Virus record (IMG/VR): IMGVR_UViG_3300021084_000006
Coordinates: 1 to 64,000 of that record
Strand: one strand, 5' to 3'
Source of the DNA: a virus
DNA: 64,000 nt
Positions 5,889 through 35,700 of the stretch are shown piece by piece. Numbering within the stretch: the stretch's first letter is position 1; every line of letters starts with the position of its first letter. Both the position numbers and the translations under genes were made by a program. The notes beneath the pieces are model-generated. The model was given only the letters and a program-made list of their open reading frames with translations, did not search any database and was not told where the DNA came from.

Positions 5889-8800
5889 TGGCAAATAAGA
5901 AAAGCATAGGACTACCAGGGGGACCAAATGAATACATAACACATGTATCAGAAATGTTTAGTACAGAAGGATATAAAAGAAATTCACCTGATGTAAACAA
6001 TCCAGTTAATATTATTGAGTCAAGTAATATTACTATGAATGGTGTAGACTTCCCTGTTAGGGGTTATGGTAACAATGGCAAAGTTCAGGATATGATGCCG
6101 GGAGTAGAACATTACGACTATGGTAATGCAGACTATGTTGTTGAAGTACCAATGGCTCAGACAGGTGTAGAAGTAGAAAAAAGTTTTGAGATAACTCCTG
6201 AGTTGCTTTTAAAACAAGCTTTTGTAGAATCTTTATTAAACCCAAAAGCTAAAAATGATCTTGGATATAAAGGTATAGCACAAATAGGAGATGACTTAAT
6301 AAGTGATTATAAAAAGGCAAATAAAGTTGAATCAGTAGATCCATTTAATGTACAACAAAATCATGATGTTCAAGAGTGGTCTATGAATGAATTATACAAC
6401 TCATCATTTGTAGATAAACCTACAAGCACTGCTGAGAATAGATTACTCAAAAGTTTAGCATCTTATAATTGGGGAAGAGGTAAAGTACGAAAATTACTTA
6501 ATGAAGAAAAGGCTAGTGGTACTGATATATATACAGGAACTGATTGGACAGAGAAACTACCGCAACAAACAAAGGACTACATAAATATGATTGTTTATGA
6601 TGGTTCAACAGAAAAAAGACCTCTAGTACAAGAGAATTTTATCAAAGCAACAAAAGATGATAAGTATAAAGAAATAAGAGATATATATAAATATCAGTAC
6701 GGTGGTGATTTATTTGATGAAAGAACTAATAACGCACTTGTACAAGATAATACTTATGTAAGTAGGTTTATGCCTAAAGATCCTTTCCCATCTTTAAGAA
6801 ATATAAATAAAAGTATTGAAGATTATAAATTAGATCCATCAGATTATGAAGTTAAAGATAATCCAAGATCATCAGATAATAATCTAGAAAATAATCATGT
6901 TGTTGCAAAGGGTGAAAACTTAGGTCTTATAGCAAAAAAGTATAATACATCTGTTAGTGAAATTGCATCTTTAAATAATATACAAGATCCTAATTTAATT
7001 AATGTAAATCAAAAATTAAAATTACCAAACATTGAGGTTAGTGACAAAAAAGAATATGTAATAAAAGCTGGTGATACCTTAAATGAAATAGCTAAAAAAC
7101 ACGGGACAACATCCAATAAGTTAGCTGAAATTAATGGCATTGAAGATATAAATATTATAAGTATAAATCAAAGATTACAACTGCCTGATAATTATATTGA
7201 TGAAGTAAGTCTAGCAGAAGAAAGTTGGATTAGTACAGATAAATTAAAGCAAAATAGAAAAGACATCAATGGTGGTAATGATGAAAGCATTGTTGTAAAA
7301 TCACAAATGTTAAATGACCCAAATCAAAGATATGTTGTTATAGATAAAAAATCACAAAGATTAAAACTTTATCAAGGTGATAATGTTCTTATGGATTTTG
7401 AAGTGGGAACAGGTCAAAATGTTGGAGATGCACAAACAGTAACTAAAAATAAATATATAGATCCATATGGAAATACAGTTACACCAAAAGAAGCATTTAT
7501 AGAAGAAGAGAAAGACGGTAGAATTGTATATGAGAAACTTAAACCAGGATACAAAAGTAAAGTAGACTGGAGTGCTGGTAATAAGCAAACAGGTGCAGGA
7601 AAATTTACAATGGGTAATGTGGGTGAATATAAAGACACACCTTCATTTACATTAGTTAATGAAAATGGAATAGAAATACCTGCTGTTATTCATGCTGCAT
7701 TAAATAGTAGAAAACAATACTTTGATAATGACAACATTGAAGATAATAGAATGAGCAATGGTTGTATCAATGGTAAGTGTACTGATCTAGAGGCATTATA
7801 TAATACAGGCTTACCGGCAGGTTCTCCAGTATTTATATTACCAGAAGAAGAAGGAAACTATTTTGAGTTTGCAGATGGTCAAGCAGTATTAAGAACAGGT
7901 AGACAAAATAGGATAGATGCAGAAAATTATACTGATTCACAAGGTAGAGAACAGAAAGGTCAAGGGATTAATAGATCTACTAATACTTTAAACTATAAAG
8001 AAATTAGACCTGTTTTTGATGAGGAGAAATTTAAAGAAGATAAATTTACTTATTTTGATTTTGATGATACTGAAGAATATGAAGAATCAGTTAAGCCTTT
8101 TGTAAATTCATTAGTAAATAATAAACAAAGGATAATGAAAGTTGCTGGTATATCTAGTGACCAGTATAATGAAATAGCTCAGATTGCATTTGGAATTTTA
8201 GGTAATGAAACAAACTTTGGAGATACTCATAGTGAAGTGGGTAATGCAATTAGAGGTGCAAGGAAAAAATTTATAAGTCCAAAATCATCATCACCAGATT
8301 ATCAGAGAAAATTTGATGGTTATAGTTTTGCTGAAGGTGCTGATAATGACTATAACAGTGTTGGACTTACTCAGCTTAGGTATCAAGAAGTAAAAAATGA
8401 AGGTAAAAAAAGAGATAGTAATGGTAATATTTTAGCTTCTGAAAGGGACAAAGTAATGCCAGCAGAAAAAATGTTTAATGATTTAGGTATAACTTCTAAT
8501 GCAGACTTAATGGATCCTGAGAAAGCAGCTATAGCAACAATTGCTAGATTAGCTTTTTTAGTCAACAATAGAAAAGGTGTTGACAAAAATGATTTGATGA
8601 ATACATTACCTGGATTTTGGGGAGGGTCAAGTAAAGATGGTAAAGCTACATATATAAATAATGTCAAGAAGAATTCTAAATATTTAAAGCTAGAACAGCT
8701 AGATAGAGTTTTACCTACAAATGAAGAAGGAGGAGAGATGGATGACTTTGATATGTATCAAGGATATTTAAATGGTAAGTATGATGGTACTGAACAAGAG

Positions 8801-8914
8801 CTGGAAGCAGAAAAGATATATGATAAGCTTAACAGAAAACATTATAGAGAAGCTAAAATGCATGGTATGACTGCTAGTAATTTTATAGCAACTCACTTTT
8901 TAAATAAAGCTTAA
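5888..8914 (+). CDS. Virion peptidoglycan-active protein: transglycosylase-like, 2x LysM, YkuD-like L,D-transpeptidase, second lysozyme-like region
   Basis: This 1008-residue multidomain protein probably acts on the host wall during entry. Residues 100-210 look like a lytic transglycosylase: E114 in an AFVES helix, then GYKGIAQI and YNWGRG blocks. Two LysM repeats follow, near 336-380 and 389-430, each with a GDTL/GENL start and an NQ-L-LP end. Residues 480-650 match a YkuD-type L,D-transpeptidase, with H602 and the catalytic S623-N-G-C626. A second lysozyme-like segment begins near 770 (GNETNFG, then SVGLTQL). The C-terminus carries EEGGE and YQG motifs shared with neighbouring virion proteins. 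The start codon overlaps the upstream stop by one base, so the two genes are translationally linked. Domain identities rest on motifs. Whether the YkuD domain cross-links, cleaves or only binds is unknown. Confidence 0.82.
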   Translation: MANKKSIGLPGGPNEYITHVSEMFSTEGYKRNSPDVNNPVNIIESSNITMNGVDFPVRGYGNNGKVQDMMPGVEHYDYGNADYVVEVPMAQTGVEVEKSFEITPELLLKQAFVESLLNPKAKNDLGYKGIAQIGDDLISDYKKANKVESVDPFNVQQNHDVQEWSMNELYNSSFVDKPTSTAENRLLKSLASYNWGRGKVRKLLNEEKASGTDIYTGTDWTEKLPQQTKDYINMIVYDGSTEKRPLVQENFIKATKDDKYKEIRDIYKYQYGGDLFDERTNNALVQDNTYVSRFMPKDPFPSLRNINKSIEDYKLDPSDYEVKDNPRSSDNNLENNHVVAKGENLGLIAKKYNTSVSEIASLNNIQDPNLINVNQKLKLPNIEVSDKKEYVIKAGDTLNEIAKKHGTTSNKLAEINGIEDINIISINQRLQLPDNYIDEVSLAEESWISTDKLKQNRKDINGGNDESIVVKSQMLNDPNQRYVVIDKKSQRLKLYQGDNVLMDFEVGTGQNVGDAQTVTKNKYIDPYGNTVTPKEAFIEEEKDGRIVYEKLKPGYKSKVDWSAGNKQTGAGKFTMGNVGEYKDTPSFTLVNENGIEIPAVIHAALNSRKQYFDNDNIEDNRMSNGCINGKCTDLEALYNTGLPAGSPVFILPEEEGNYFEFADGQAVLRTGRQNRIDAENYTDSQGREQKGQGINRSTNTLNYKEIRPVFDEEKFKEDKFTYFDFDDTEEYEESVKPFVNSLVNNKQRIMKVAGISSDQYNEIAQIAFGILGNETNFGDTHSEVGNAIRGARKKFISPKSSSPDYQRKFDGYSFAEGADNDYNSVGLTQLRYQEVKNEGKKRDSNGNILASERDKVMPAEKMFNDLGITSNADLMDPEKAAIATIARLAFLVNNRKGVDKNDLMNTLPGFWGGSSKDGKATYINNVKKNSKYLKLEQLDRVLPTNEEGGEMDDFDMYQGYLNGKYDGTEQELEAEKIYDKLNRKHYREAKMHGMTASNFIATHFLNKA

Positions 8915-18659: not shown

Positions 18660-21600
18660 ATGGAGAACAATTTAGAAAGTAAAGGTTTAGATCAGGCTAT
18701 CAAAGCTAGTGAGGAAACAGGACCTCAGTTTGCTATTAATAAGGATATAGACTTTGTATCAGTTGATCAAGCGTATGAAGACCCAGAATATGATGCATAT
18801 ATTGATATGGCAGATACTGCTGCTATACAAAGGTTAGATCAGCAAAAAGATTTTATAGAAAAGTATGGTTCCGGTGTATATCAGAATATGGCTTTACCTA
18901 CACCATCTATGGCAAATGATACATATGATCCACAGATGCAAAGAAAGGCAAAAGTGCCTGGTGATACTATATCAAGAGATAACTCCGTAGAACAAACTAT
19001 TGATGAAGTTTTATATAATCAAGGAGTAAAATTAAATCAAAAACAAAAAGAAGGGAATTTAATTGCGTCTCCTCTTTACAGTGATAAAAGAGCAAATAGT
19101 TTTGACCGTTATTATCATCATCCAAAATTTGCTACATTAGGTTATAGTCCTTATGCAAATAATTCAGAATATTATAATGCAAATAGTACAGCTTGGGATG
19201 ATCTGTCTAGAACATGGACATCTGTAAAAGGATTATTTGGCATTGGTTTTACTTCTAGTTATGTAAGTGTTGGAGATGGTATGGATGGCAAATATGGAAA
19301 ATATGATTCAGGTAGTGCTGGTTCATATGAAGATTTTGTTGACATTGGTATGTCTGATAGAGGTGGAGCAACTCAATTTTTTAATAATTTACTAGTTAAT
19401 TCAGGTTATACTTTTGGTATAATAGGATCAATAGCATTAGAAGAACTTGCATTAGTAGGTTTAGAGGCAGCAACTTTTGGTGGTGCAACACCTTTGGTAG
19501 CTGCTAGAACAGCAACGAATGCTGCAAAATTAGCTAAAGCAGGTAAAAGAGTGGTAAACTCTTTTGGAGTAGGTAGAATGGCTACAGCAACAATGGATAT
19601 GTTAAAAGCCTTAAGGAATGCTGATATTGCTAAAGACTTTTATAGTGTAGGTAAATTTGTTGGAAAAGGAATAGCACCAGAAACTTATGCTGCAATTAAG
19701 GGTATAAGGACTGCAAAAAATACTGCAGGTAATCTTACCAACATGCGTAAAGCAGCAACAACCTTTGGAGGATTTTATAGAGATGTAAGATCTTTTAACT
19801 TGGCTATGGCAGAAAGCAAGCTTGAAGGTGGTATGCTTTATAATGAAAGGATGGATGAAGGCATGAGAGAAATGCAAGCAACCAACTTTGGTGGTCCAGT
19901 TACTGATTCACAAATGGCTAGGATACAGGAAAATGCTGCTAAAGCAGGTTTTGCATCTACTATGCAAAATTTACCTTTAATATTTGCCACTAATCAACTA
20001 GTTCTAGGTAATGCATTTGGTGGTTTTAATAAGTCATTTGCAAGAATGGCTAATCAAAACATAAAAGGTGGAGCTAGAAGAATTATTAAAACTTCAAAAA
20101 GTGTACTTAAAGATGGCACAAAAGCCTTAGATGTATTTGCTGATGCAGGTGCAGGATTAAAAGGTGTTGTTAAATCTATTGCTAACGCTGGTGTAAAGGG
20201 GAATCTTAGAACTGCAGCTGGTGCTAGTCTAAGATATTTTGCTGCTAATTTTGGTGAAGGTATTCAAGAATTAGGTCAAGAAGCAATTGCTACAGGAACA
20301 GGAGAATATTATAAAACATTATTAAAAGATCCGGGAGCAGGTGGATTAGAATTATATAATACAAGTTTAGCATCAGGAATTGGATCTCAATTTTCTGAGC
20401 AAGGGTTTGAAACCTTTATGTCTGGGTTCTTGATGGGTGGTGTTGTAGCAGGCCCACAAAAATTATTTTTTCAAGGAGTGCCTGCTATTTACAAAAGAAT
20501 TTCAGATCCTAAAGCATTTGCGGAGTACAAAGCAAATAAAGAAAAAGCTATTTCTTCATTGGTAGATACTTATAATGATACCTGGAACAAAATGGCAGAA
20601 GATCCAAATGCTGTTTTTGATCAAAAGAAGTTTAAATTTTTAGTTCAAAAGCAAGCTGCTGAAGGAATGTTAGAATCTGCATTTGAAAGTGATCAGTTTG
20701 GTTTTATAGATAGTAAAGATATTGCAAAGTTTAATCAAATTTATGATGTAATATCTAATGGTGGTGCAAGATTTTTTGAACAACAATTAAATGATTATGC
20801 AAACCTGGATGACGCTAGTTTAGCACAGGCATTTCCTACAGATAAACAACAAATAAAATCAGGTAAACTTAGAAAAAGATTTACTGACATGATTGATTCA
20901 ATTGGAGTCATGGAAGAAAACTTTAATAAGTTAAGTGATAAATATGAAAATCCTTTTGATGAAAGTAGATTTGAAAAAGGTACAAGAGAATTTCAAGAAG
21001 AAGCAATAAAAAGAATATCATTTGATCATGCACGTTATTTATACATGTTTACTAATGATGGATTTAATAGAGCTTTAGAAAGAGCAGATAGTATATTTCA
21101 GTCATTAGAATCAGATCCATTGTTTAAAGACATGGAGGCAAAAGATATTACTGTATTATTAGACAATGATTCAATTAATAATGAATTAAAACTTTTACTT
21201 CAAGAAGAGTTAATTTTAAAAGATGATAAAACTCAAAAAGGTAAAGTAAAAGAAATTAGAGAAAGAGCAAAAAGGTTAGGAGCTTTACAAGCAATCTTAA
21301 GTGACAAAAAAAATCTAAAAAAAGATGGATCATTTGATCAAAGAAAAATACTTAAACTTAAAACTGAATTTCACAACTATGTAAGATTCATGGCTAAAAA
21401 GTCAGGATCATTTGTGAATGAAGAGGTTGTAATGGACGCTCTTAAAAAAATTGTAGATCATAAAGCCCTTAAAGGTAGAGCAAGGGTATACTACAAGTCT
21501 ATTGAATACTTAAACAATCCTGAAAGATTTACAGAGATATATGAAAGAACAAATGAATTCTTAAAGAGTGCATTTAAAGATGTTCAAAGAAACTATAAAG

Positions 21601-24600
21601 AAGCAGTTGAAAAGTATATTGAAACAAAAGAACAAGTTCAACTTCTTAATGAAATAGCTAAACTTACTGATCACAAGGGTAACATGGTTATACCAGACCC
21701 TAATGAAGTTAAAAAATTCTCTATAACTAATAACCCATATGATCTTAAGACGTTCTATACAGAAGCAGGTACAGTTACAAAAAGGTTTAATGCAACTACA
21801 GTAACACAAATCAATGAAATACTGGGTGCCTATGCAAAAATAACTGAGCAGGATACAGTAGATCAAAAGACAGAAGAAGCACAAGCTGAAGAAACAAGGG
21901 CTGATGTTGAAGAGATACTCAGTGAAAATGGAGTAGAGATAGAACTACCTACTGGTGAATCCAAAGTATATACAGAAATACTAAGAAAAGGTTATAACAA
22001 ATATCTTGCTGATCAAGCAAACTTAAATAAAAATGCAGTAGACTTTAATGCTTGGATTAATACAGAAAATGGTAAAGCCTATAGACAATCATTTGCAGCA
22101 ATTAAAAAGATATGGATAGCAAATGATAAGTTAACAAACCCTAATAGATCTTTAACCCCAGAGCAGATTGAGAATGATGCAAACCTTATAAGTTGGTTAA
22201 CATCTCAAGAAGGAAAAACAAATGACTTGGTTGCTAAAATATTAGACAAGACTGGTTTAACCATCTCAGAAATAACAGGTATACAAGAACAAGCACCTAC
22301 AAAGAATAAACCATACAAGGGAAGAGCTAACACAGATGTTATTGAAAGCGGATCTTATGTAGCACTTGTACAAACTGAAACAGAAAACAAAAATGGTGAG
22401 AAAGAATTTCTTTATCAGTTGTTTGAAAATAGTACTGGTAGATTACTAGATGCTGAAATACTAAGTGCAAAAGGATTAGGTAATGTTAATGCTTTTTTAG
22501 TAAAGGGTCAAGCTATATCTGCTTATAAAAGACTAGAAAGTGATCAACCAAACTCAGCAGAGTTTCCATTTGATGGTGTTGAAGGTTTGTCATATGGTCA
22601 AAAGGTTTATAAAGATGGAATAGAATATACAATATTAAGTAATCCAAAAAAATTAGCTAATAAAGGAACACTTCTTTTAATACCATCTGATGCTCAATCA
22701 TTAACGTATGAGGAAAAGGTAGCACAAAAGGTATTTGTAAATGTAAAAAAAGGTGGGTTTAAAGATTTCTATACACTAGAAGAAATAGATTCAAAACGTT
22801 TACCTAATAGTGTTTCAAGATTAAACTTTAATGAACTTGTTACACCTTATGGTGCAAAGAATGAAGATGAAACTTCATGGAGTATAGCTAAGCAAAGATA
22901 TTTTGCTATAATTTCTGAATTATCTCAAGAAGACCTAAAAACTTTAGAACTTGTTGTTACACTAAATCCAGAGGCTGGTAAAAAAGGAGGGCAATATACT
23001 ATACCTGGTAAAGAAAGCAATGAATATATTACACGTACACAATCTAAATACCTTATTGGTATAAGAACAAACAGTGGTGTTGTACAAGATAAGATTGATG
23101 CATTGTTTGCTAAGAATGGTAGACTTGAAGGAGTAGATCCTTTTAAAAGTGATGCTAGAGTATTTGCTTTTTTACCTAATCAAAATTTTCAAATAGAGAT
23201 AGGTGGTAAAGTATTAACAGTTGATCAGCTTAACCCTAGTCAGTCAGCCAATATATTTGATGTATCTGATAATTTAAAAAATAAATTAACTGATGCACAA
23301 GTATTAGAAATAGTAAAGGAAAAATATGCAATAAATAATGCTCTCTTGGCAAAAATAGATGAGCAATTTGCAGAAAATTCAACAGATGGGAACACAGCAG
23401 TATTGTCTAAAGAACAATTACCTGAAGGATTTTCATTTAATTCTACACTTGGTAATGTTGTATATGATAAATCAGATAAAAAATTAACTGATTTAGAATA
23501 CAATGCAGCAGATGAAAATGGTAACTATTTGATTTATCAATTAGAAAAAAGTAAAACTGGAAGATCTAAAATAGTTATTACTAATCTAGAAGAAGATGCT
23601 AGAGAAGAACTAATTAATAAAGTAGAAACACAATTAGAAAAGCAAGGTTTACTAAGTGAGTTAAGCAAAGGAACAGATGCTTATAAAGCAGCTGTACTTT
23701 TACCTGATGGAACTTATAGACTTGTTCCTTTAAAGTCAGAGTCATTAGAAAATGAAGCAACTGATAAGCTGTTTGTTGATTTGATTACAAGAGCACAAAA
23801 AACACAAGAGGAAAATAAGAATGGAAAAGACCCTTCTTATAACAAAGAATGGAATGATAATCAAGGAGTGTGGATTAGTTCTTATCCAGGAATAACGGTA
23901 AAGCTTGAAGTAAATAAATATGGTAAAGTTCAATTGTCTATTGTTAAAGATGGTAAATGGACAAACTTAGAATTAACACGTGATGAGGTTAACGCAGCAG
24001 AAGATGTAGAAGTTAAGATCCAAAAATTAATTGATAGAGCTAATGAAACAACTGTTTTCAAAACAGCAGTTAGTAGTCCAGAGACAGGAAGTAAAATAGG
24101 TTTTACTTTATCTAGAAAAAACTTTAGAACATCTTATTCTAGAAGTGTAGGTGTTAATGAATTAATTGAGAAAACAACAACTCAAGCTAAAACTCAAGTT
24201 GTAGGTGTAAATACATTAGAAGTATTTGCTCCTTCAGGAACTACACAGAGTTCTTCTAATACAGAAACAACTACATCAGCTACGTTTACTCCAACCAGAG
24301 ATTATACAGATGCAGAGGGTAATCCAATACCTGCAGGCCCAGAGATGACAACTGCAAGTTCTAAAGAAAAAACTTTTACAGCAGAAGAATCTGAATATAG
24401 TATACTAGACTTAGAAGATAGTGAGTTTGATGCATATAAGGAAAATGACTTTAGAGATCTTCCTTCTTATATGATAGAGCATATTGTAAACAAAATCATA
24501 TCACCAGAGGGTGGAGTTGCGTTAAGAGAAAGAGAAAGACAAGTTTTTGAAAGTCCACGCAAGTCAGAAATAATGACTAGAATTGCTATACTAGGTGGTA

Positions 24601-27600
24601 CAGTTAAAGAAACAGAGATATCAGAAACACCTTTAAGTAAAATTGATAAAGAATTAACTGCTCTCAAAAAGAAATTACAAGAGGGTAAAAAAGGTGCAGC
24701 AAAAAGAAAAGCTTTAAAAGATAGTAAGGAATATCAAACATTACTAAAAAATAAAAAAGCAATAGAGTCTGCAGCTAATAAAGTAATGCCTGCATATACA
24801 GCGCAGGATTCAGAGAATGTAGATGTCTTTATGGCTTGGGCTGCAAACAACCTACCTGACTTCATTAGTATAGAGGACATAGGTGTATTAGGTAGCAACT
24901 TAAAAGCGGGTGGTGTAAGAGTTGGAGCTTTTGCTTTAAACTTACATGCATTAGCAGGAGGAATGAAAATTGGTGGAACAATATACACCGGTGCTAAATC
25001 TCCATTTAGATATCATGAAGCATTTCATGGTGTGTTTAGAATGTTGCTAAGTGATACAGAAATTAATAAGTACTTATCAATTGCAAGAAAAGAAGTAAGA
25101 AGCAAATTAAGAGCAGAAGGTAAAAACTTTTTACAAGAACTAGAAAGATTTAGAAATTCAGCAGACACATATACTAATATGAGTAAGGCTAGATTAGAAC
25201 AAGAATATTATGAAGAATATCTAGCAAATGAGTTTGAAGCATTTAAACAAAATCCAAAAAAGACTAAAACAGATTCCGGTGTCAAGTCTTTATTTACTAG
25301 GATTATGGAGTGGATTAAATCCGTATTTAATTCATACAATAAAAGTGAGTTGCTTACTTTATTTGAAAACATTGATGGTGGTAAATATCAGACAGCGTCA
25401 ATAGCTAACAATCAATTTATTAATACTCTTACTACAGGAGTTACAGTAGAAGCAAATGCATTAATACCTTATGATTCTATACAAGATGGAAAGAAGGTAG
25501 GTTTTTATTATTTAGATAGTGCTGTAGCTGATCCTATGATTAGAAGTATTGCTGCTATGTATTTACAAGCAGAACGTCAAGTTACAGAAACAGGTGTTAA
25601 AAGATCTGAAATATTTGATGCTGTCATAGATGATTTTTACAATCTATATGATCCAGAGAATGTAATAAACCTAGATAAAACAGATGCACAAAGAGAAGTA
25701 TTAGAAAATATAATTTTAGCATTAGATAATTATTTGGAGGTTATAAAACCACAAGTATATTCTGTATTAAATGTTATAGATAGTCAGATTACTGAAGAAG
25801 AATATAACACAGAGTACTTTGAAGACTCAGTAGGACTAAGAAGTATTGATCAGTGGAATACAGATGCATCATTAATTGGTGGATTAGAATCTACACCGAG
25901 ACATATACGTGCTTACTTGGCTACAACTACTAAAGAAGAAACAGATTTCTTTGGTAATAGAGAGTTAAAAGCTGGAGTACCTTTAATTATACCAGTAGAG
26001 TTTAATAAAGTATATAACGGTTTACTAAAAGCTGTTAAGAATATTGAAGATCCAAAAAAGATGTTGCGTACAATGTACTTCTTTGGACAAGATAATCTTG
26101 AAACAGGAGCAGTAGTGTCAAGATTATTGAATGATCTTGGTGTTAGTAAAGAAGCTTTGTTATCAAATAGCCCTTTACCTTTAGAATTAAAAAATCCTAG
26201 TTTGTTTCAAGCATTCACTAAAGCTTTTGAAAACTTTAGAGTAGAATATATATTTAGTCAAAGAGATTCAGCGGGTAATGTTATAATGTATTCTGCAGCT
26301 GAAAGAGATGATATAAATTCTCAAGTAGATGTTTGGTCACAAGCATGGAATGATGCAGAAAAGAAAATAAAAGTTGATTCTAGTAGAAAAGAAACTGTTG
26401 AAAAAACATTAGGTGCTTTTGGTAATTTATTATTGCCTTCATCAACACAGAAAACAGATAAGGAAATTAGTGAGTTGTCTCAAAAATACTCAGAGAAAAT
26501 ATTTGAACTTACAGGTATAAGACTAAGTAAGCAATACATTGCATTTAGTTTAACAGCAAACAGACCTCAAACCGAAGAGCAGGGAGCACTTCAGAGTGTG
26601 CATTCTAATGAAACACCTATTACTGAAGAGGCTATCCGTACAATGAATATATTGATTCAAAATGGTGAAGATATTTTTAATGAGGGTGAAGAAGGAATGT
26701 ATTCTAGATTAAGAACCCTAGCTATTAATAATGCACCTTTTGATGAAACAATTGGTTTATCTGTATTTAAAAATAGTGAGGGTAATTTAGTTTATGCTCA
26801 TCAAAAACCTACGTATCATTTAAAGCAAGTTGAAAAATTAAATACTGATGTTCAAGCTTTAGAAAAATTAAAACAAGAGAATCCTTATTTGAAAAATAAT
26901 TATCTTTTAAATAATGATGCGTTTATACAAATGTCTGCAGAGAACAGACAAAAAATATTAAGAATTGCTGGTACAGCTGTTGGTAATATAAATACTACTG
27001 AAGAAGAAATAAATGAAAGTATTTCTGGATTAAAGTCTAGATCCACTTATGGTAACTTCACACCACAAGAGTTTGCACTAAATTTACTGAACTCATATAC
27101 TTATGGTGTTAATACCAAATCTAATAAAGCTAATTTTGTAGAGTACTATGATACTAAGCTTGGTAAGAATGTTAAGGTTGCTTTAGCTCCTTCATTAATA
27201 AGGGTATTAGAATCTTCCAACACGGGGGATATGATGAACCTTCCTGTAATTAAAGCTGTTGAGTTTGTTAGTGGATCAACTGGTGCTGTAAAATTAACAG
27301 ATGAGGCTGTTGATACATATATAAGTTCAATTGAAACAGAGTATGACCGTATACTAAGAGAGTCAGCTCTAAGACGTGATAATCCTTTGCAAGTACAAAA
27401 GCTAGGTTATAATACTGAAGGAGGTAGAGCATACAAACTTCATAACTCTGCTTTATTTTTACCTCAAACAATAAGAATTGCACTAGAAGAAATAGCAACA
27501 CGTGATGATGCAAAAAGTTTGTCTGCTGCTTTATCTGAATTAGATATGACTATGGCTGATCTTAAGTCAAATGTAGTAGAAAGTTTAGAGCAACAATTTG

Positions 27601-30600
27601 AACTGTTTAAAGATGAGCTTAAAACATTAAACATAAATGAAGAAATAAGCAGTAAAGTTAGAGAAGGTTTGGTAAATAAAAATGTAAAAGCTACACCAGA
27701 TCTAATACAGTCAAATCAATTGCTAAATTTAAATTATGATCAAGAATATAATTTAAAACAAATCTTTTTTAATAACTGGATTAATACAAAATCAATCAAT
27801 GAGATATTATTAGGAGATCAAGCAGTTACTTTAAAGAATGGTGTAGATGCTATTAAAAGAGCAAAGGCACAGAATGCTTCAACAGTTAGTGCTTATAGTG
27901 CAATTACTGCTCCTGAATTAGGAATTAATCATCCTGTTGATAATATAAGTTTAGTTTCTTTAGAAGAACCAATTGGTGTATCATCTGTAACAGGTGACAA
28001 TATTGATATTGCTGATGCACAAATGTGGATGACTACAAAAGCATTTAGATATATGTTCTTTGGTTTTGGTAAATTAACACCAATGCAAGCCAAACTTATG
28101 GATAAAGTAGAGGCAGGAGAAACAATCTCATCTGAAGATATATTTGGTCAAGACGGTTATGTTAGTAATGGTGTAATGCTTAATTCTAAAAAACTTGTTT
28201 ATTTTGATGGTAGTACATTTATAAAGATGTCTGCTTTTATATTGACACCACAACTTACATCCAATAAAGTTGTAAATGCTAATGGTGAAGTTACATATAC
28301 TGCAAAAGAAAATAGAAAAGAATTACATGATCTAAGAGTAAAACTTGAAGGTATAGAAGCAATAAAAGACAAACAAACACTTGGTATTGCTGCGCCTTTG
28401 AGTGCTTTAAAAATGTTAAAGCAAAAAGTAAAAACATTAGAGGAAGTAAAAGCAGATGGTCAATTCAGTGAAAATGATTTTACATCATTATCAGCTAAAA
28501 ATATGGGTCTTCAATTAGAGGTACCTTCTAATAAACTTGAAACTGTTGAGCCTTCACAAATTAAAGCAATTATAACATCAGAACAAAAAGATGATGTATT
28601 TGTCAAAGAGCTTGGTTTAACTGTAGGTCAAATTAGAAAAGCGTACAATGAAGCAATTAGTGCTAGAGTTGAATTAAAGTTTAAGAATAAAAGAAATCTT
28701 ATTTTTACTTTTGACAGTGCTATGGAAGAGTTAAAAATCTCTATGGCTAAAGATAAGCTTACACCTAACTTAATGTCTTTTTTAAGATATGCAACAGAAG
28801 GTTTAAAGGCATCACAATCTAGCTCACAACTATTAGAGTTTTTCTCTACTGAAGAAGGAGAACAAAAATATGATTTGAATAACCCTATAACAATTAATAA
28901 GTTTGAGCAATTATTCTTAAGTTATTTAAGTAAAGGTGTTCTTGCTGAAAAACAACCGGGACATGCTTTAGCTTTGGTTTCTTCATACGGTATGAATATA
29001 TACAGAAGAGTTTATAGTGTAGATGAAAATGGTATTCCAGATAGATCAGAAGTTATTAGAGAAAAGTACTGGAACAAGATATCTAATAAACCAGAAGTTG
29101 TAGAATTTGACACACTTCTAGGCAGAAAGATTCCAAAAGAAGGTGTTGTAGTATTAGACCGTTTAAGATCTGGTGTTAAAGAATATGATAGCAAAGGTGT
29201 GTTTACAGGTCAAAGATATACTGAAATGCTAATGCCAGCACATTTTAAAAGCGTAATGGATTTAGTTGAGAATGGTAGCATGGCTAATATACCTGAAGTT
29301 ATATCTAAGATGTTTGCAATACGTATACCATCTCAAGATAATCATTCAACAATTAATATAAAGCATGTAGATTTCTTACCTGCCTTTTATGGTTCATCAG
29401 CAACATTTGCTCAAGAACTTGTTGAAATATCAGGAGCGGATTTTGATATTGATAAAGTATATGCTCAGATTAAAGAGTTTTATGTTAAAGATAAAAAGTT
29501 TATTGAATACGGTACTGCTAAAAATAACAATGATGCATATGATGACTATATTAATTACATAAATGAAAAGGTAAACAAACCAGGTACAATTTATTCTGAA
29601 GCTTATCAGTTATACAAAACAGATGAAGGATCAGCAAGAATACAAAACAGTGCAACAGAAGCTGAGGTTGGCGTTGCATCTGATGCGGGTGCTAGTGAGC
29701 AATCTATAAAAGCATTGCAAATGTTAGGATTACCTATTACTAAAGGACAATATGTAAACTATATAAAGAAAAATAAAACTGAACCTTATGAAGCACCATA
29801 TAACAATGAAGTATTAGATTATAAATATGCTTTAATGGGTAATACAGGTGTAACTGAATCAACTGAAGGTATACCAATATCTTATACAGCAGCAAACTTA
29901 GAGATTTTAGAATCTGAATTAGCAGCATTGGTACAACTTTCTGAAACCTTTGCACTACGTGATAGTGAAGACTCTGTGGATATTGATAATTTACTTGGTC
30001 AAATAAAAGCGTTTACAAGCAACAAAGGTGCTGCTATTGGTGCAATTGTATCTCCTAATGTTAACTTAAGTTTATTGACTGAGTATAAGATAAAACTAAA
30101 AGGTGATAACGGATTAAATTTTAATAATGTAACCTATGATAGTTTTGCAACATTAACTGAGAAACTTACCAAAACAAAAAATGGTCTTAGAAAGCAAGAT
30201 ATTATATCTTCTTTAATTACCATGGCTACAGATAATGCTAAAGAAAGATTAGTTGCAAAACTTGGTCTTAACAGAGCAGCATTATCATTGGTAGGTACAA
30301 TGACAGGTTTAGGTGTTCCAATTAGAACATCCTTACTCTTAGTCAACAATCCATTGATACGTGATATCTATAATGAAGCTTTAAATAAAAAAGATAAGTT
30401 AGATCCTGGAGTTAAGGCATTATCTAAAACTGCATTTGAAAATATTTTTAAAAGAATTGGGAATCTAAATGAAAAAGTAGTAGAGGTTGTAGTAACTGAT
30501 GAACTTTTATTAGAAGCTATTAATAGAACAGGTAAAGAAAGTATTGCTTCATTACAAGCAGATTTAGCTATACTAGATCAGTTTATATCTGCATTAAATA

Positions 30601-32762
30601 TTAATGATGAGGTTACCAAAATGACATCTGTTTCAAATCTAACAAAAGGGTTGGGTCAAAATATGGCTGCTGTAGCTGAGACAAGAAGAAACATATCAGA
30701 CTTAATGGACAGTGAGATGATGGATCTTAAATCTATTTATCAAGGTGACACATGGCTTTCAAAATATGTTGAAATATTTCAGCAAATATCTGATGAAATA
30801 TTACCATCAACATTTTTATCTGCTAGTGAATCATTCCAAGATATCTTGGATGAAGTTGTAATAAACATAAATGCAGGAGATATACAATTTACAGAAGAAA
30901 CATTAGCTGGTATATCAAGAGACTTATTGTCTTACATTACTATTAAAGCCTACATAAACAAAAAATTAGGTGTAGATGGTAATTCACAAAGTGTTGCTAC
31001 TTTAAGTAATGATTTAATCTATCCTGGAGATTATCAATCCATTAATGAAATAGTTGATAGAATGAGATCATCAGAAGCTGGACAAGACAATTTCTTCTTG
31101 GATAGTTTTGCAGTCAGTGTTAAATCAGATGAGCAAAGCAATAATACTGGTACAAATCAGCTAAATGCAAATACATTTAGAAGTTTAAATGCTGCACAAA
31201 AGATTGACTTACAAACTTCTTTTGCTAAGCTTTACGGTTCATTGGAGACAAAGGATGATGCTTTATCAATTATTAATTATATAATGGTAAAAGACGGTCT
31301 ACAATTATCATCAGGGTCATTACTAGATGCTGTTAGTCCATTTATTATGGAGAGTTATTTATCTCAAATTGAAACAGCAAATCAAGCATTAAGATCTAGA
31401 TCTACTGAAGAAGTATTTGGTTTATCTTTTACTGAGATGAAAAAAGAATTTATAGAAGGTTATCTTCTTTCAAATAAAAGTAATGCATTGTTGCAAACAT
31501 TTATTTCTTCTCCAGGATTTGTATCTAAAGGTATAAAGATTAAGGATAATAAAGCCACTGTTGCATGGAATGAAAAGCAAAAAATTGGTGGAAGTAAACT
31601 TTACTTTAGAGTTAAAAATGAAACTGATGCTGGAGTTATTACATCAATAGATACATATAAAAGAGATGAAGATTCACAAACTGACTATACAAAAATAGAT
31701 ACTGTTGGTTCTAATCAACAAAATGCTATTGGTTTTATGTTTGGTGAAAGACCTACATATAAAGCTGTTAGAGAGTATGTAAAAGAAAAAAATGATCTTG
31801 TAAATAAAAATGATGACATTGCTAATAATTCAGCAAGCTCATTAGCAGAGGAAAAAAGTCTAGCTGCTGTATATGCTGATGAAATTTTAAATGATCAAAC
31901 TGCAGATATAGTAGCAACAGAAGAAGGCATTACAGTGAATGGTGAAGATATAGCAGATGCAATAGAGTCATATGACCCAGATAATGTTGTTGATCCAGAA
32001 AATTTAGAAGGTAATTCTATTTCTGGTAATAGTATATTAAATCTAATTTCATCTGATACAATAAAAAGTGTAGAGGTGCCTGAGTACACAGTTAAAAATC
32101 TAGTAAATGAAGATGGTACTAAAAGACTAGCTTCAACTAATGGTAATCAAATATTTCTAAACCCTGTTGAATCTATAGAAGAGTTCTTTAATTATGTTAC
32201 TGGTAAACAAGGTGGTCAAACATCTAAACAAAAAGAACAAGTAATATTGGCTTTAGAAAAAGAAGGTTATACAGTAGACCAAATGAGAAACATTCTAGAT
32301 ACTAAGAAGAAAGTAAATACTTTTTTAGTTTTTCATGAGCAAGATCATATAGATAACAATGATAAAGATGTCTATTGGAAAAATGGGAAAGACTTGCTGA
32401 CTCAAGATAAAATAGATATTGAAGTTAGAGCTACAGTTGTTGCTTTGAAAAAGGTTCAAGAAATGCAGGCTGGTACAGAACAAACTGAATTAGATACTTC
32501 AGAAAATCAAGTATCAGAAACACCGTTAACAAATGAACTAATGGGTCAATTAAAGTTTGCATTAGATTTTGAATCTAAATATAACACTTTAATAAACTTT
32601 TGGGACAACAATGTACAAGGTAAACCTGAAATGAGAAGTAAGCTAAGAGCTCAAAATATATTATCTTTACAGGATATGATTGATGCATTTAATAATTCAA
32701 GTTTTGAAGAGACAGGTGTAGATCCACAAGATCAATTTTTAGAAAAGTTAGGTTGTTTATAA
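18660..32762 (+). CDS. Giant virion RNA polymerase protein (crAss type, DFDID) with two zincin-like metallopeptidase motifs
   Basis: The gene encodes 4700 residues without interruption. The decisive motif is SGA-D3594-F-D3596-I-D3598-KVY. It is preceded by the RIPSQ...HVDFLP...YGSSATF context typical of the two-barrel, single-chain RNA polymerase of crAss-like phages (characterised for Cellulophaga phage phi14:2 gp66). The three Asp should bind catalytic Mg. An upstream block near 3115-3190 (DAQMWMTTKAFRYMFFG, then SKKLVYFDG and FIKMSAF) is a candidate for the Lys-bearing barrel. H2119-EAF-H2123 and H4559-EQD-H4563 (followed by an IEVRATVVAL helix) are zinc-peptidase HExxH motifs on either side of the polymerase. 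Hydrophobic segments near 245-290 and 590-620 may help membrane passage. By analogy it is packaged and injected to start transcription. Whether the chain is cleaved into parts is unknown. Confidence 0.85.
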   Translation: MENNLESKGLDQAIKASEETGPQFAINKDIDFVSVDQAYEDPEYDAYIDMADTAAIQRLDQQKDFIEKYGSGVYQNMALPTPSMANDTYDPQMQRKAKVPGDTISRDNSVEQTIDEVLYNQGVKLNQKQKEGNLIASPLYSDKRANSFDRYYHHPKFATLGYSPYANNSEYYNANSTAWDDLSRTWTSVKGLFGIGFTSSYVSVGDGMDGKYGKYDSGSAGSYEDFVDIGMSDRGGATQFFNNLLVNSGYTFGIIGSIALEELALVGLEAATFGGATPLVAARTATNAAKLAKAGKRVVNSFGVGRMATATMDMLKALRNADIAKDFYSVGKFVGKGIAPETYAAIKGIRTAKNTAGNLTNMRKAATTFGGFYRDVRSFNLAMAESKLEGGMLYNERMDEGMREMQATNFGGPVTDSQMARIQENAAKAGFASTMQNLPLIFATNQLVLGNAFGGFNKSFARMANQNIKGGARRIIKTSKSVLKDGTKALDVFADAGAGLKGVVKSIANAGVKGNLRTAAGASLRYFAANFGEGIQELGQEAIATGTGEYYKTLLKDPGAGGLELYNTSLASGIGSQFSEQGFETFMSGFLMGGVVAGPQKLFFQGVPAIYKRISDPKAFAEYKANKEKAISSLVDTYNDTWNKMAEDPNAVFDQKKFKFLVQKQAAEGMLESAFESDQFGFIDSKDIAKFNQIYDVISNGGARFFEQQLNDYANLDDASLAQAFPTDKQQIKSGKLRKRFTDMIDSIGVMEENFNKLSDKYENPFDESRFEKGTREFQEEAIKRISFDHARYLYMFTNDGFNRALERADSIFQSLESDPLFKDMEAKDITVLLDNDSINNELKLLLQEELILKDDKTQKGKVKEIRERAKRLGALQAILSDKKNLKKDGSFDQRKILKLKTEFHNYVRFMAKKSGSFVNEEVVMDALKKIVDHKALKGRARVYYKSIEYLNNPERFTEIYERTNEFLKSAFKDVQRNYKEAVEKYIETKEQVQLLNEIAKLTDHKGNMVIPDPNEVKKFSITNNPYDLKTFYTEAGTVTKRFNATTVTQINEILGAYAKITEQDTVDQKTEEAQAEETRADVEEILSENGVEIELPTGESKVYTEILRKGYNKYLADQANLNKNAVDFNAWINTENGKAYRQSFAAIKKIWIANDKLTNPNRSLTPEQIENDANLISWLTSQEGKTNDLVAKILDKTGLTISEITGIQEQAPTKNKPYKGRANTDVIESGSYVALVQTETENKNGEKEFLYQLFENSTGRLLDAEILSAKGLGNVNAFLVKGQAISAYKRLESDQPNSAEFPFDGVEGLSYGQKVYKDGIEYTILSNPKKLANKGTLLLIPSDAQSLTYEEKVAQKVFVNVKKGGFKDFYTLEEIDSKRLPNSVSRLNFNELVTPYGAKNEDETSWSIAKQRYFAIISELSQEDLKTLELVVTLNPEAGKKGGQYTIPGKESNEYITRTQSKYLIGIRTNSGVVQDKIDALFAKNGRLEGVDPFKSDARVFAFLPNQNFQIEIGGKVLTVDQLNPSQSANIFDVSDNLKNKLTDAQVLEIVKEKYAINNALLAKIDEQFAENSTDGNTAVLSKEQLPEGFSFNSTLGNVVYDKSDKKLTDLEYNAADENGNYLIYQLEKSKTGRSKIVITNLEEDAREELINKVETQLEKQGLLSELSKGTDAYKAAVLLPDGTYRLVPLKSESLENEATDKLFVDLITRAQKTQEENKNGKDPSYNKEWNDNQGVWISSYPGITVKLEVNKYGKVQLSIVKDGKWTNLELTRDEVNAAEDVEVKIQKLIDRANETTVFKTAVSSPETGSKIGFTLSRKNFRTSYSRSVGVNELIEKTTTQAKTQVVGVNTLEVFAPSGTTQSSSNTETTTSATFTPTRDYTDAEGNPIPAGPEMTTASSKEKTFTAEESEYSILDLEDSEFDAYKENDFRDLPSYMIEHIVNKIISPEGGVALRERERQVFESPRKSEIMTRIAILGGTVKETEISETPLSKIDKELTALKKKLQEGKKGAAKRKALKDSKEYQTLLKNKKAIESAANKVMPAYTAQDSENVDVFMAWAANNLPDFISIEDIGVLGSNLKAGGVRVGAFALNLHALAGGMKIGGTIYTGAKSPFRYHEAFHGVFRMLLSDTEINKYLSIARKEVRSKLRAEGKNFLQELERFRNSADTYTNMSKARLEQEYYEEYLANEFEAFKQNPKKTKTDSGVKSLFTRIMEWIKSVFNSYNKSELLTLFENIDGGKYQTASIANNQFINTLTTGVTVEANALIPYDSIQDGKKVGFYYLDSAVADPMIRSIAAMYLQAERQVTETGVKRSEIFDAVIDDFYNLYDPENVINLDKTDAQREVLENIILALDNYLEVIKPQVYSVLNVIDSQITEEEYNTEYFEDSVGLRSIDQWNTDASLIGGLESTPRHIRAYLATTTKEETDFFGNRELKAGVPLIIPVEFNKVYNGLLKAVKNIEDPKKMLRTMYFFGQDNLETGAVVSRLLNDLGVSKEALLSNSPLPLELKNPSLFQAFTKAFENFRVEYIFSQRDSAGNVIMYSAAERDDINSQVDVWSQAWNDAEKKIKVDSSRKETVEKTLGAFGNLLLPSSTQKTDKEISELSQKYSEKIFELTGIRLSKQYIAFSLTANRPQTEEQGALQSVHSNETPITEEAIRTMNILIQNGEDIFNEGEEGMYSRLRTLAINNAPFDETIGLSVFKNSEGNLVYAHQKPTYHLKQVEKLNTDVQALEKLKQENPYLKNNYLLNNDAFIQMSAENRQKILRIAGTAVGNINTTEEEINESISGLKSRSTYGNFTPQEFALNLLNSYTYGVNTKSNKANFVEYYDTKLGKNVKVALAPSLIRVLESSNTGDMMNLPVIKAVEFVSGSTGAVKLTDEAVDTYISSIETEYDRILRESALRRDNPLQVQKLGYNTEGGRAYKLHNSALFLPQTIRIALEEIATRDDAKSLSAALSELDMTMADLKSNVVESLEQQFELFKDELKTLNINEEISSKVREGLVNKNVKATPDLIQSNQLLNLNYDQEYNLKQIFFNNWINTKSINEILLGDQAVTLKNGVDAIKRAKAQNASTVSAYSAITAPELGINHPVDNISLVSLEEPIGVSSVTGDNIDIADAQMWMTTKAFRYMFFGFGKLTPMQAKLMDKVEAGETISSEDIFGQDGYVSNGVMLNSKKLVYFDGSTFIKMSAFILTPQLTSNKVVNANGEVTYTAKENRKELHDLRVKLEGIEAIKDKQTLGIAAPLSALKMLKQKVKTLEEVKADGQFSENDFTSLSAKNMGLQLEVPSNKLETVEPSQIKAIITSEQKDDVFVKELGLTVGQIRKAYNEAISARVELKFKNKRNLIFTFDSAMEELKISMAKDKLTPNLMSFLRYATEGLKASQSSSQLLEFFSTEEGEQKYDLNNPITINKFEQLFLSYLSKGVLAEKQPGHALALVSSYGMNIYRRVYSVDENGIPDRSEVIREKYWNKISNKPEVVEFDTLLGRKIPKEGVVVLDRLRSGVKEYDSKGVFTGQRYTEMLMPAHFKSVMDLVENGSMANIPEVISKMFAIRIPSQDNHSTINIKHVDFLPAFYGSSATFAQELVEISGADFDIDKVYAQIKEFYVKDKKFIEYGTAKNNNDAYDDYINYINEKVNKPGTIYSEAYQLYKTDEGSARIQNSATEAEVGVASDAGASEQSIKALQMLGLPITKGQYVNYIKKNKTEPYEAPYNNEVLDYKYALMGNTGVTESTEGIPISYTAANLEILESELAALVQLSETFALRDSEDSVDIDNLLGQIKAFTSNKGAAIGAIVSPNVNLSLLTEYKIKLKGDNGLNFNNVTYDSFATLTEKLTKTKNGLRKQDIISSLITMATDNAKERLVAKLGLNRAALSLVGTMTGLGVPIRTSLLLVNNPLIRDIYNEALNKKDKLDPGVKALSKTAFENIFKRIGNLNEKVVEVVVTDELLLEAINRTGKESIASLQADLAILDQFISALNINDEVTKMTSVSNLTKGLGQNMAAVAETRRNISDLMDSEMMDLKSIYQGDTWLSKYVEIFQQISDEILPSTFLSASESFQDILDEVVININAGDIQFTEETLAGISRDLLSYITIKAYINKKLGVDGNSQSVATLSNDLIYPGDYQSINEIVDRMRSSEAGQDNFFLDSFAVSVKSDEQSNNTGTNQLNANTFRSLNAAQKIDLQTSFAKLYGSLETKDDALSIINYIMVKDGLQLSSGSLLDAVSPFIMESYLSQIETANQALRSRSTEEVFGLSFTEMKKEFIEGYLLSNKSNALLQTFISSPGFVSKGIKIKDNKATVAWNEKQKIGGSKLYFRVKNETDAGVITSIDTYKRDEDSQTDYTKIDTVGSNQQNAIGFMFGERPTYKAVREYVKEKNDLVNKNDDIANNSASSLAEEKSLAAVYADEILNDQTADIVATEEGITVNGEDIADAIESYDPDNVVDPENLEGNSISGNSILNLISSDTIKSVEVPEYTVKNLVNEDGTKRLASTNGNQIFLNPVESIEEFFNYVTGKQGGQTSKQKEQVILALEKEGYTVDQMRNILDTKKKVNTFLVFHEQDHIDNNDKDVYWKNGKDLLTQDKIDIEVRATVVALKKVQEMQAGTEQTELDTSENQVSETPLTNELMGQLKFALDFESKYNTLINFWDNNVQGKPEMRSKLRAQNILSLQDMIDAFNNSSFEETGVDPQDQFLEKLGCL

Positions 32763-32786: not shown

Positions 32787-35700
32787 ATGGCTACATGTCC
32801 AAATAAAAACGCAGCAGAATACAAAGCTTTACAAGCAGTGTATAAAACAGAATTAAAGACAAATGATGTCATTAATAGCTGGCAACGTGTTAATAATACA
32901 GATGTAATACCTACAACGGTAGAGGCAAATAGATATGTAAAAAACCAAAAAACAGTTTATGCATTAAAGCAAAAAGCATTTGGTGAAAGTCTTTTGAATA
33001 ATTTACGTAGAGAAAAAATTATACATCAGTATCAGGGTACTTATTTTATTAATAACTCCAATCAGCAGACTAGAGAGTATGATGAAGTATTTCTGCAAAA
33101 AAACTATGACAAACTACAAAGGTATTTAGAAATAAATAATATTCCTTTAGATTCTATATCACTAACAAGAACACCTAAAACATTTAAAGTAGCTGTCAAG
33201 AATGATATATTCACACCTCAAGATATTTTAACAAAGTCTAGATCTTGGGATACAAATAGATCAAGGGCTGTTGTTACACATTTAATGAGGATGTTTCCCC
33301 AGATAAAAGTAAAAATGCTATCAGTAGCAGATGCTAAAGCTGTATATGATACTATCCCAAAGTGGAAAAAAACATCTGCAAATTTTTCTGAAGTTAATTC
33401 ATTTTATGTTGATGGTGTAGCATACTTAATTAGAGGAAGAGTAACTGATGAAACTGCTATAGAAGAAATGCTTCACCCATTTATAGATGCAATTAAAGTA
33501 GATAATGCAGAGCTTTTTAATGGTTTACTAGCTGAAGCAAAAAGAAACTTTCCTCAAATGGTTCAGGAAATTACAGATGCATATAATAGTGACAGAAGAT
33601 TTACTCAGGTTGAAAGAGATTTAGAAATTGTAACACAAGCATTAACAAGACATTTCAAACAAGAATATGAAACTAAGCCAACTCAAACATTCTTAAATAG
33701 AATAAACCAAGCATTGGAGTGGTTTATGAATGTAATTAAAGACTTGCAAAACTACATTACAGGTGCAGCTTTACCAGTAACTGCAATAAACAGCAGTACA
33801 AACTTTAGTACTCTAGCCAAACTTCTTAATACAGAGGGTATAAGGTTTAATCTTGAAAGTAGAGCTAATGGTAAAGTTAGGTATGCTTTAACTCCAAAAA
33901 AACAAAAAATAGTAGATGCTACATTAAAAGTGTCTAATGGATTGCAGCAAGAAATAATTAAAAAAATGTTTCAGGTTGCAACGTCAACTAAAGAAGAAGT
34001 TGACTCTTTATCTGTTAATATTAATGTAGCAGAGCAAGGAGATGACATAGTAATACTAAATGAAAAAGATCATACATACTATAACTTAGCTACAGGAGAA
34101 ATATATGAATCTGTTACTACTGCTATAAAAGGTAAAATGCCTAAGTCAAAGCAAGTAGAAAATCAAATTAACCTTGATATTGGTAATGATGTAGATGCAT
34201 TATTAGATGCGTTGGTGTCTTTTGAATCTTTTGAAAGTGCTATTCCAAACATGCAAGTTTTAAATGCTGAGCAGGCGGAGGAAGTATATAAAAGATTAAA
34301 AGATGAGCTGTCACAAATAATTCCTAAGTCAACAGTACTTATATCACAAGTAGTAGTATTTGATCCTGCAACTAAGATTGCCGGTACTGCAGATTTAATT
34401 GCAATTGATGAAAATGGAAACATAAAGATTATTGATTTAAAAACCAGTAAGAATTCCATATACAAAAAAACTGTTAAAGATTCATTTGTTAGTGGTATAC
34501 CAGGTAGATCAGAAGTATTTCAGTATGAAACTAAAGAGTGGGATATTTTACCATCTACAGAAGATGTAATAGAAGATTTAGAAGATAATAATGTAAAGAA
34601 GGAAGACGGTAATAAATATTCTAAAGAGCAAATAAAGAATAGGAAAGAAGAACTTGCACCTACACTTTATAAAAAAGCAGGAGTTACAAAGCTTTCTACA
34701 AGAGGTCAGCATAACTTACAAGTAAACATGTATAAACGTATGTTTGAAAACATGGGTTATAAAGTTTTAGGTAATGAAAATGGTGCGGCAACCTTCCATA
34801 TGTTAGCAGATATAAGTGGAAAAGGTAAGGATCAAGTATTTAATGGTGGTATAAAGTATGATGGTTTATATCAACACAAGGCAACAGAAGAACAAGATAA
34901 GGTAGACAAATTAATACCTGCTGATAATAGCACGGCTGCTGCTAAAAAATTAGAAGAACTTACAAAAGACAATGAAAATCTTGCTTACGTAGGTAAAGAT
35001 GAAGATATAGAGCAAGTAGAAAATAATATCCCAGAAGAAAACTATCCTGAGTATAATACAATCTTTGGTGCATTAGAAGGTTTTGCAGCTGGTCTTCTTA
35101 ATAAGCAACAAGCTCTTGAAACTATTGCTAGTAAAACCTTCACTACTCAAAATAAAGAATTAACACGTGATGAGATTGCAAGAGCTGTTGCTTTAATACG
35201 TATGAATTTAGGGGCCGGTTCAGATGCTAGATCACAGACTTACACAGCAATGTTGAGGTATGGGTTAAAAGAAATAAGACAATTTAAAGATTATGTTGAA
35301 GATCCAAATAATGTTACAAAGCCTGAGTATATAACTTTTGTTTTAAATTTTAACAGATTTATTGCCACATATGAAAGCTTATATTCAATTGCAGAATCTA
35401 GTGAATTAAATGCTACACAAAGATCTTTAGTTCTACAAATGCAAATTGAAGTTAATAAACTTGTAGGAACAGAAAACACTGAAGGTATAATTAATCAAGC
35501 ATACACTGATTTTGTAAAAGAGACGGTTAGATTAAGATCAGATAAAAATTTTGGTGCAGAAAACAGCTTGTTTACTGAGGAAGATCTTGATCAGTTGATG
35601 AAAAGAGTAGAAGACATAAGCACTATAGAATTGCTTACTAAAGATATGGCTACTCAGAAAGATACTTTGATGGCTGTTATGGATAAAATCTATAAAAGAC

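Follow-up and report, generated by a model that had tools for sequence, protein, structure and literature searches.

A probable gp47–gp50 fusion carrying a crAss-type RNA polymerase, and a rule of terminal cysteines in the transcription proteins of Crassvirales

A single viral open reading frame in which an RNA polymerase signature lies between two metallopeptidase motifs raises the question of what protein it encodes, and whether its parts act as one chain or are separated on their way into the host. The frame runs without an internal stop through the forward strand of the 64 kb window analysed here (64,000 nucleotides in all), which is part of a 71,814-base virus record. An initial annotation had proposed that the chain contains a crAss-type virion RNA polymerase with metallopeptidases on both sides, arranged as a self-processing or staged-release cargo polyprotein, and the length of the frame and the positions of HEAFH (2119), DFDID (3594) and HEQDH (4559) that it gave are all correct:

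18660–32762, + strand: probable virion cargo protein in which a gp47-type protein is fused to a gp50-type RNA polymerase, 4,700 aa (translation; HHalign)
25014–25028, + strand: HEAFH, residues 2119–2123 (conservation in relatives; motif scan)
29439–29453, + strand: DFDID, the catalytic Asp triad D3594/D3596/D3598, residues 3594–3598 (motif and conservation; beta strands of the model flank it on both sides)
32334–32348, + strand: HEQDH, residues 4559–4563 (motif; conserved Glu 25 residues past the second His)

The chain holds just 23 histidines, and shuffling it gave a mean of 0.0065 HExxH motifs, with two reached in 0 of 2,000 shuffles. DFDxD alone is less rare, occurring in 3.6% of shuffles, and homology tests were therefore needed for it. 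Both HEAFH and DFDID are conserved in the relatives long enough to cover them, with HEAGH as a variant in one (L043), while HEQDH is found in few relatives only and sits in a hypervariable stretch. Since the record comes from a viral metagenome collection, misassembly could in principle yield a fused frame, but an identical chain exists in a second IMG/VR record, the core of the relatives is 50–81% identical, and named phages share the architecture. These observations refute chance motifs or an assembly artefact, to which we assign a negligible probability.

The window contains polymerase, gp49-type and primase genes of the order Crassvirales. The + strand carries, in order, a muzzle-type protein, an internal lysin, two predicted cargo genes, a 1,091-aa gene, the giant chain and a gp49 homolog, and the – strand carries ribonucleotide reductase (RNR) subunits, a primase with crAss relatives and other replication genes. 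The muzzle-type structural protein (213–5888) is closest to those of Leptolyngbya phage Lbo-JY46 and Cellulophaga phages phi17:2 and phi4:1, not to those of the gut crAss phages, and includes a von Willebrand A-like stretch recognized by eye (DIVIAMDTSGS). The internal virion lysin (5888–8914) has LysM repeats and transglycosylase/endolysin matches, and a further protein (60461–61624) with HELLH and DTSGSVN motifs resembles a VWA-metallopeptidase gene.

The polymerase could be delimited by several independent comparisons:

25848–31586, + strand: predicted crAss-type RNA polymerase, residues ~2397–4309 (HHalign; profile against 6vr4_A; AF2 and Foldseek)

Pfam and PHROGs gave no match above threshold for the full chain or for its separate modules, and phmmer with the whole chain found no match in the PDB, so that a profile was required instead. 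When residues 2400–4000 were compared by tblastn with 50,697 phage records, 64 were matched (best E 2e-7) around the Asp triad, and these are crAss-type wherever they are named. In HHalign the polymerase half and crAss001 gp50/Dulem 41 share 1,628 aligned columns (prob 99.6, E 9.7e-24); for phi14:2 gp66 the values are prob 98.2 and E 2.7e-14. A profile of the 42-sequence family retrieved the phi14:2 vRNAP structure 6VR4 at E 4.1e-117. Both barrels lie in the single chain, where profile positions 17–1142 align with 6vr4 809–1924 as one stretch and Foldseek aligns 1,248 columns, the two barrels being covered jointly by one alignment. The AF2 model of residues 2990–4150 (pLDDT 83.3, pTM 0.83) gave 6VR4 as its first Foldseek match (6vr4_A, E 9.8e-29, probability 1.00) and QDE-1 as its second. 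Profile, model and structural search thus place the DxDxD motif in a double-psi beta-barrel with the fold of 6VR4, rather than in a loop of an unrelated fold, and the polymerase assignment of the initial annotation is borne out. The phi14:2 protein (gp66; KC821624 gp077; PDB 6VR4) has the same two-barrel core and DFDID triad (D1361 there), but it is 2,180 aa long and, unlike the window chain, is not fused to a zincin-bearing protein. Packaging into the virion and transcription of early genes by crAss-like polymerases have been shown in the literature for crAss001 and phi14:2.

In the first half of the chain little is recognizable beyond the domain at its end, on which its assignment mainly depends:

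18660–25394, + strand: predicted gp47-type half, residues 1–~2245, boundary approximate (HHalign; zincin end and weak collinear stretch)
24897–25394, + strand: zincin-like domain, residues ~2080–2245 (HHalign prob 99.1, E 1.3e-18; invariant residues)

Residues 1–2400 gave no tblastn match in the phage collection. In HHalign, residues 2054–2350 matched the zincin region of crAss gp47 proteins and of fused chains (prob 99.1, E 1.3e-18), and the N-terminal half matched the C-terminal end of gp47 (prob 96.8), with crossed controls near 0: the N-terminal half resembles gp47 and not gp50, and the C-terminal half gp50 and not gp47. Outside the zincin end, the likeness to gp47 is confined to a weak collinear stretch at residues 365–552 (prob 40). 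The half ends, as in gp47-type proteins, in a zincin-like domain with HExxH and downstream Glu; H2119, E2120, H2123, E2185 and E2186 are invariant in 36 chosen rows, from which degenerate motifs were left out, and this Glu pair lies 66 and 67 residues past the first His of HEAFH. The AF2 model of the domain (pLDDT 66.8, pTM 0.49) is too weak for a fold call and gave no Foldseek match below E 1, and the profile matches are weak (PPEP-2, E 0.23; FtsH, E about 2).

The 4,700-aa chain thus appears to be gp47 and gp50 in one, two proteins that other Crassvirales make separately, and on the comparisons above we hold the fusion and the polymerase identity, as a joint claim, to be very nearly certain. 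This identity would account both for the size of the chain and for the zincin motif at its centre. In crAss001 (Steigviridae) the homologous parts are three separate chains, gp47 (2,341 aa, HEAFH at 2157), gp50 (2,412 aa, DFDVD at 1483) and gp49, with gp47 on the opposite strand; all three are found in virions (PMC6235969, PMC10172136). Dulem virus 41 has the gp47, gp50 and gp49 genes in a row, collinear and unfused. An IMG/VR survey with a diverse polymerase alignment gave 80 loci, 67 with a readable G[SA]DFDxD chain; zincin and polymerase share a chain in 32 of the 67 (30 non-redundant), the zincin lies elsewhere in the locus in nine, and in 26 it was not found.

The size of the chain, which the initial annotation had treated as novel, is not. 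Suoliviridae cr1_1 (MT774380), cr4_1 (NC_055893) and cr55_1 (MT774376) encode the same single chain, about 4,500 aa long, with the gp49 homolog as a gene of its own behind it, and lengths of "up to ~6000 aa" are already on record for crAss polymerases in a review (PMC10136315). The cr1_1 and cr4_1 chains are 4,551 and 4,491 aa long, with HEAFH at 2001 and 2002 and DFDxD at 3445 and 3433, respectively; cr4_1 uses TAG as a sense codon, and the chains are annotated merely as "hypothetical protein". They differ from the window chain in having low similarity outside the core and no HEQDH cassette. The architecture was therefore known but uninterpreted, and what is added here is its identity as gp47 plus gp50.

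With a zincin-like domain placed right at the gp47/polymerase junction, a self-processing polyprotein is an attractive reading, in which the zincin would cut the junction, either in the head or after injection, and free the polymerase. The strong conservation of the HEAFH helix and the downstream Glu pair would suit such a role, and a published account proposes autoproteolysis by such domains in polyvalent proteins and in P1 DdrB (PMC5512222). A release protease would, however, have to be catalytically intact in all members, and six fused relatives have lost zinc ligands: the second His is replaced by Glu in L093, L124 and L126 (HEAFE) and in L094 (HEIFE), and both His are lost in L098 and L101 (WEAFR). 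These zincin-degenerate chains amount to natural experiments against release of the polymerase by the zincin, and they contradict it as a general mechanism. The domain is, moreover, equally conserved in unfused gp47, which has no polymerase to release, the N4 vRNAP is packaged unprocessed although it is fused to a similar domain (PMC5512222), and the fused chains lack the junction cysteines of the two-piece systems discussed below. Taken together, we regard self-processing as improbable. Of the proposals in the initial annotation, zincin self-processing does not stand as a general one, and staged release fails in that form; it may survive in another, in which separate pieces are joined by reducible Cys–Cys bonds.

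The second HExxH motif belongs to a module of a different kind:

32067–32465, + strand: mobile HEQDH cassette, residues 4470–4602, occupying a variable slot in the C-terminal part of the polymerase (module comparison across relatives)

This module of about 130 residues is present in few close relatives only. Its slot is bounded by a conserved stretch (..GSNQQ..FMFGERPT..) and the last 70 residues of the chain; five relatives have nothing in the slot, and in L003/L039, L007/L008 and L011 it is taken by other modules, none of which has a Pfam or PHROG match. A scan with the HEQDH module located it elsewhere in the same chain in L136, within a gp49-like gene in L128, close to the C-terminus of more distantly related polymerase chains in L131 and L132, and in L134 within a polyvalent protein that is not a polymerase. 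Against Pfam, PHROG and PDB nothing scored above threshold, the evidence for the module being the motif and the conserved Glu, and HHalign found the HEAFH and HEQDH domains to be unrelated. A conserved second protease is ruled out by this mobile, optional distribution. The two domains therefore appear to differ in kind, HEAFH being conserved and fixed in place and HEQDH mobile, and of the "metallopeptidases on both sides", proposed as one design, only the zincin-like domain N-terminal of the polymerase stands as part of the architecture.

The chain thus combines several unrelated domains and swaps modules, as do the polyvalent proteins of phages and conjugative elements, injected chains in which zincin-like domains are the commonest (PMC5512222). 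The crAss polymerase chains are absent from that survey and, in the window, the chain is built on a conserved polymerase set. It is tempting to see the zincin-like domain and the C-terminal cassette as polyvalent-protein effectors acting on host or competitor proteins, with the chain as a delivery vehicle only. The exchange of slot modules between relatives and the recurrence of the HEQDH module in L136, L128 and L134 fit this theme (PMC5512222), but the HEAFH domain keeps its position from family to family and is not swapped. We consider the effector reading a serious possibility that falls somewhat short of an even chance; it is compatible with the explanation preferred below, and not exclusive of it.

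If the chain is not cut, how are its parts and its partners kept together? An indication comes from cysteine:

32754–32756, + strand: Cys4699, sole cysteine of the 4,700-aa chain (residue count)
32787–38612, + strand: gp49 homolog, 1,941 aa, predicted RNA-polymerase-associated cargo with an N-terminal extension (tblastn, best E about 1e-18)
32796–32798, + strand: Cys4, sole cysteine of the gp49 homolog and proposed disulfide partner of Cys4699 (residue count)

The gp49 homolog matches crAss genes annotated as "putative RNA-polymerase subunit" (tblastn, best E about 1e-18), and its N-terminal extension has a sub-threshold PD-(D/E)XK match (PF12705, 18.6 bits, cut-off 22). The six predicted cargo genes (5888–38612) contain 6 Cys in 10,849 residues, against 108 in 9,148 (1.2%) in the other listed genes. 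Chains of the close family with an intact 3′ end have exactly one Cys, within the last four residues, in 17 of 17 cases. In a wider set, with duplicates removed and an end Cys defined as one within 12 residues of the terminus, separate gp49 proteins carry it at the N-terminus in 62/64 and at the C-terminus in 0/61, and polymerases standing alone in 22/26 and 26/28, respectively. For gp47+gp50 fusions the N-terminal count falls to 2/18 and the C-terminal count is 41/41, while chains fused to gp49 have no C-terminal Cys (0/10, after dropping L070, which the profile scored as fused but which has a separate gp49 gene). Other open reading frames, taken as a control, have an N-terminal Cys in 4/92. 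Separate gp47 genes carry Cys at the C-terminal end; no end Cys was found at gp47 N-termini, at gp49 C-termini or in the C1/C2 cargo proteins. The rule is that where the chain is broken the facing ends carry Cys, and where it is fused the facing Cys are absent.

Individual families follow the break as it moves. In crAss001, Cys is found at the gp47 C-terminus as C2339, at the two gp50 ends as C5 and C2404, and at the gp49 N-terminus as C5; in phi14:2 the corresponding residues are C1797 of gp078, C3 and C2179 of gp077, and C3 of gp076. The Suoliviridae giant chains end in Cys, as here, with Cys at positions 3–5 of their gp49. In Intestiviridae, which have gp50 and gp49 in one chain, that chain begins with MSC and lacks a C-terminal Cys, and the preceding gene ends in Cys. 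Four chains of about 5,500 aa (L091, L098, L101, L111) have no Cys at all; L098 and L101 contain recognizable zincin remnants and gp49 within the Cys-free chain, and a gp47 part in L091 and L111 is suggested by their length. The two N-terminal "exceptions", L087/L089 and L092, break before the zincin, the upstream gene ending in ..NCN and the chain starting with MALGC, so that here too the Cys pair follows the break. At intron-type breaks (PQ006092, L075) the facing Cys are absent; cr116_1 was left out of this control, as its interrupted chain happens to end in Cys within the insertion. In L107 (9746–10049) and L075 (8101–10346) probable introns break the polymerase frame close to the catalytic motif or upstream of it. 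The DNA neighbourhood of the genes is ruled out as the source of the pattern, because in crAss001 the gp47 and gp50 genes are encoded on opposite strands, their starts and ends separated by 11 kb.

The association is strong by Fisher tests (P 4.6e-11 for C ends, 5.4e-7 for N ends and 6e-36 for gp49 N-terminal Cys against other open reading frames), in which the rows are related and kinship is uncorrected. On a tree of 79 polymerase cores there are at least six changes in gp47 fusion, and N-terminal Cys varies with it as expected in 5.8 of the 6 independent pairs (P about 0.03 by a sign test); the gp49 fusion changes twice, 2/2 as expected, so that this half has few independent cases. Script-written predictions for five further phages, made after the rule had been formed, agreed at 49 of 50 ends, and the single miss is an annotated start 18 codons too early, with an internal start at MAKSC; as cr55_1 is close to cr1_1, the five are not fully independent cases. 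Taking the first ATG as the start codon produced false misses in L059, L069 and the PQ006092 gp49. True exceptions are L082, with no Cys at either end and no fusion recognized, and L054, with its last Cys 27 residues from the end, and many unfused polymerases have further cysteines beyond those at the ends. It is this cysteine rule, rather than the giant chain already present in public Suoliviridae genomes, that is the new finding: a literature search, with the phi14:2 polymerase paper outside its scope, found no report of the end-Cys pattern in crAss phages, nor of nearly Cys-free cargo in them, though such cargo is known for N4-type virion polymerases.

Facing Cys whose presence depends on whether a peptide bond spans the junction would be expected if a disulfide joins those ends that are not joined by translation. 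From the demonstrated homology, fusion and cysteine pattern, we infer an ordered delivery in which the 4,700-aa protein would be packaged and injected as a single chain and would transcribe early genes in the new host. The gp49 homolog, the third member of the set and a separate gene here, would be tied end to end to the polymerase by a disulfide between Cys4699, at the polymerase C-terminal end, and its own Cys4. The bond would form in the oxidised virion, hold the pieces in line at ejection and be reduced in the host cytoplasm, whereupon the pieces would come apart. In relatives the gp47/gp50 break would be bridged likewise, the fusion swapping the bridge for a peptide bond. A fused cargo polymerase with disulfide-tied separate pieces is, overall, the explanation that we favour, with moderate confidence. 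Tethering across the break is, by itself, slightly better than evenly supported, and its extension to the Crassvirales at large, whose transcription proteins would form a covalent head-to-tail train with a disulfide at each gp47/gp50/gp49 break unless fusion replaces it, we judge to be evenly balanced.

Disulfides have been resolved in the crAss001 tail (PMC10172136), and gp47, gp49 and gp50 were detected in crAss001 virions after reducing SDS-PAGE (PMC6235969). Thioredoxin-like genes lie near the transcription block in L138, L139 and L142, and could reduce the proposed bonds or serve nucleotide metabolism. The terminal Cys might instead be packaging or anchoring devices, one for each free end, that attach to the portal, a scaffold, other cargo or further molecules of the same protein rather than linking one piece to the next. 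The pattern can equally be described as one Cys per free end at the gp47 C-terminus, both gp50 termini and the gp49 N-terminus. However, the lack of Cys at gp47 N-termini, at gp49 C-termini and in C1/C2 cargo means that there is not one tag per protein; Cys are confined to ends turned towards another member of the set, and they track the break where it has moved (L087, L092). Anchoring is thus a less likely account, though one to be kept in mind beside the disulfide tether.

Other giant virion polymerases offer partial parallels. N4-type virion RNA polymerases (about 3,400–3,500 aa) are likewise giant and injected, with an HExxH domain, and are cysteine-free (PMC5512222, PMC3715699, PMC3915230), which has been attributed to passage through the oxidising periplasm (PMC3715699, PMC3915230); they are, however, T7-like with an unrelated fold, and an end-cysteine pattern is not reported for them. 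P23-45 gp96 (5,002 aa) is also a giant chain that combines a two-barrel polymerase with a metallopeptidase domain (PMC10770324), but there the polymerase is N-terminal in the tape measure protein of a long-tailed phage and belongs to a different clade.

The cysteine rule provides a simple, testable statement about the most abundant human gut viruses, and it bears on how three huge proteins, which in crAss001 measure 262 (gp47), 277 (gp50) and 154 kDa (gp49) and together 694 kDa, are threaded in order through a narrow tail and separate inside the cell. If the disulfide proposal is true, it names three bands that would be expected to become one on a non-reducing gel, and it would describe a redox-cleavable linkage for the ordered injection of phage proteins, which may represent a general design for linking and releasing them.
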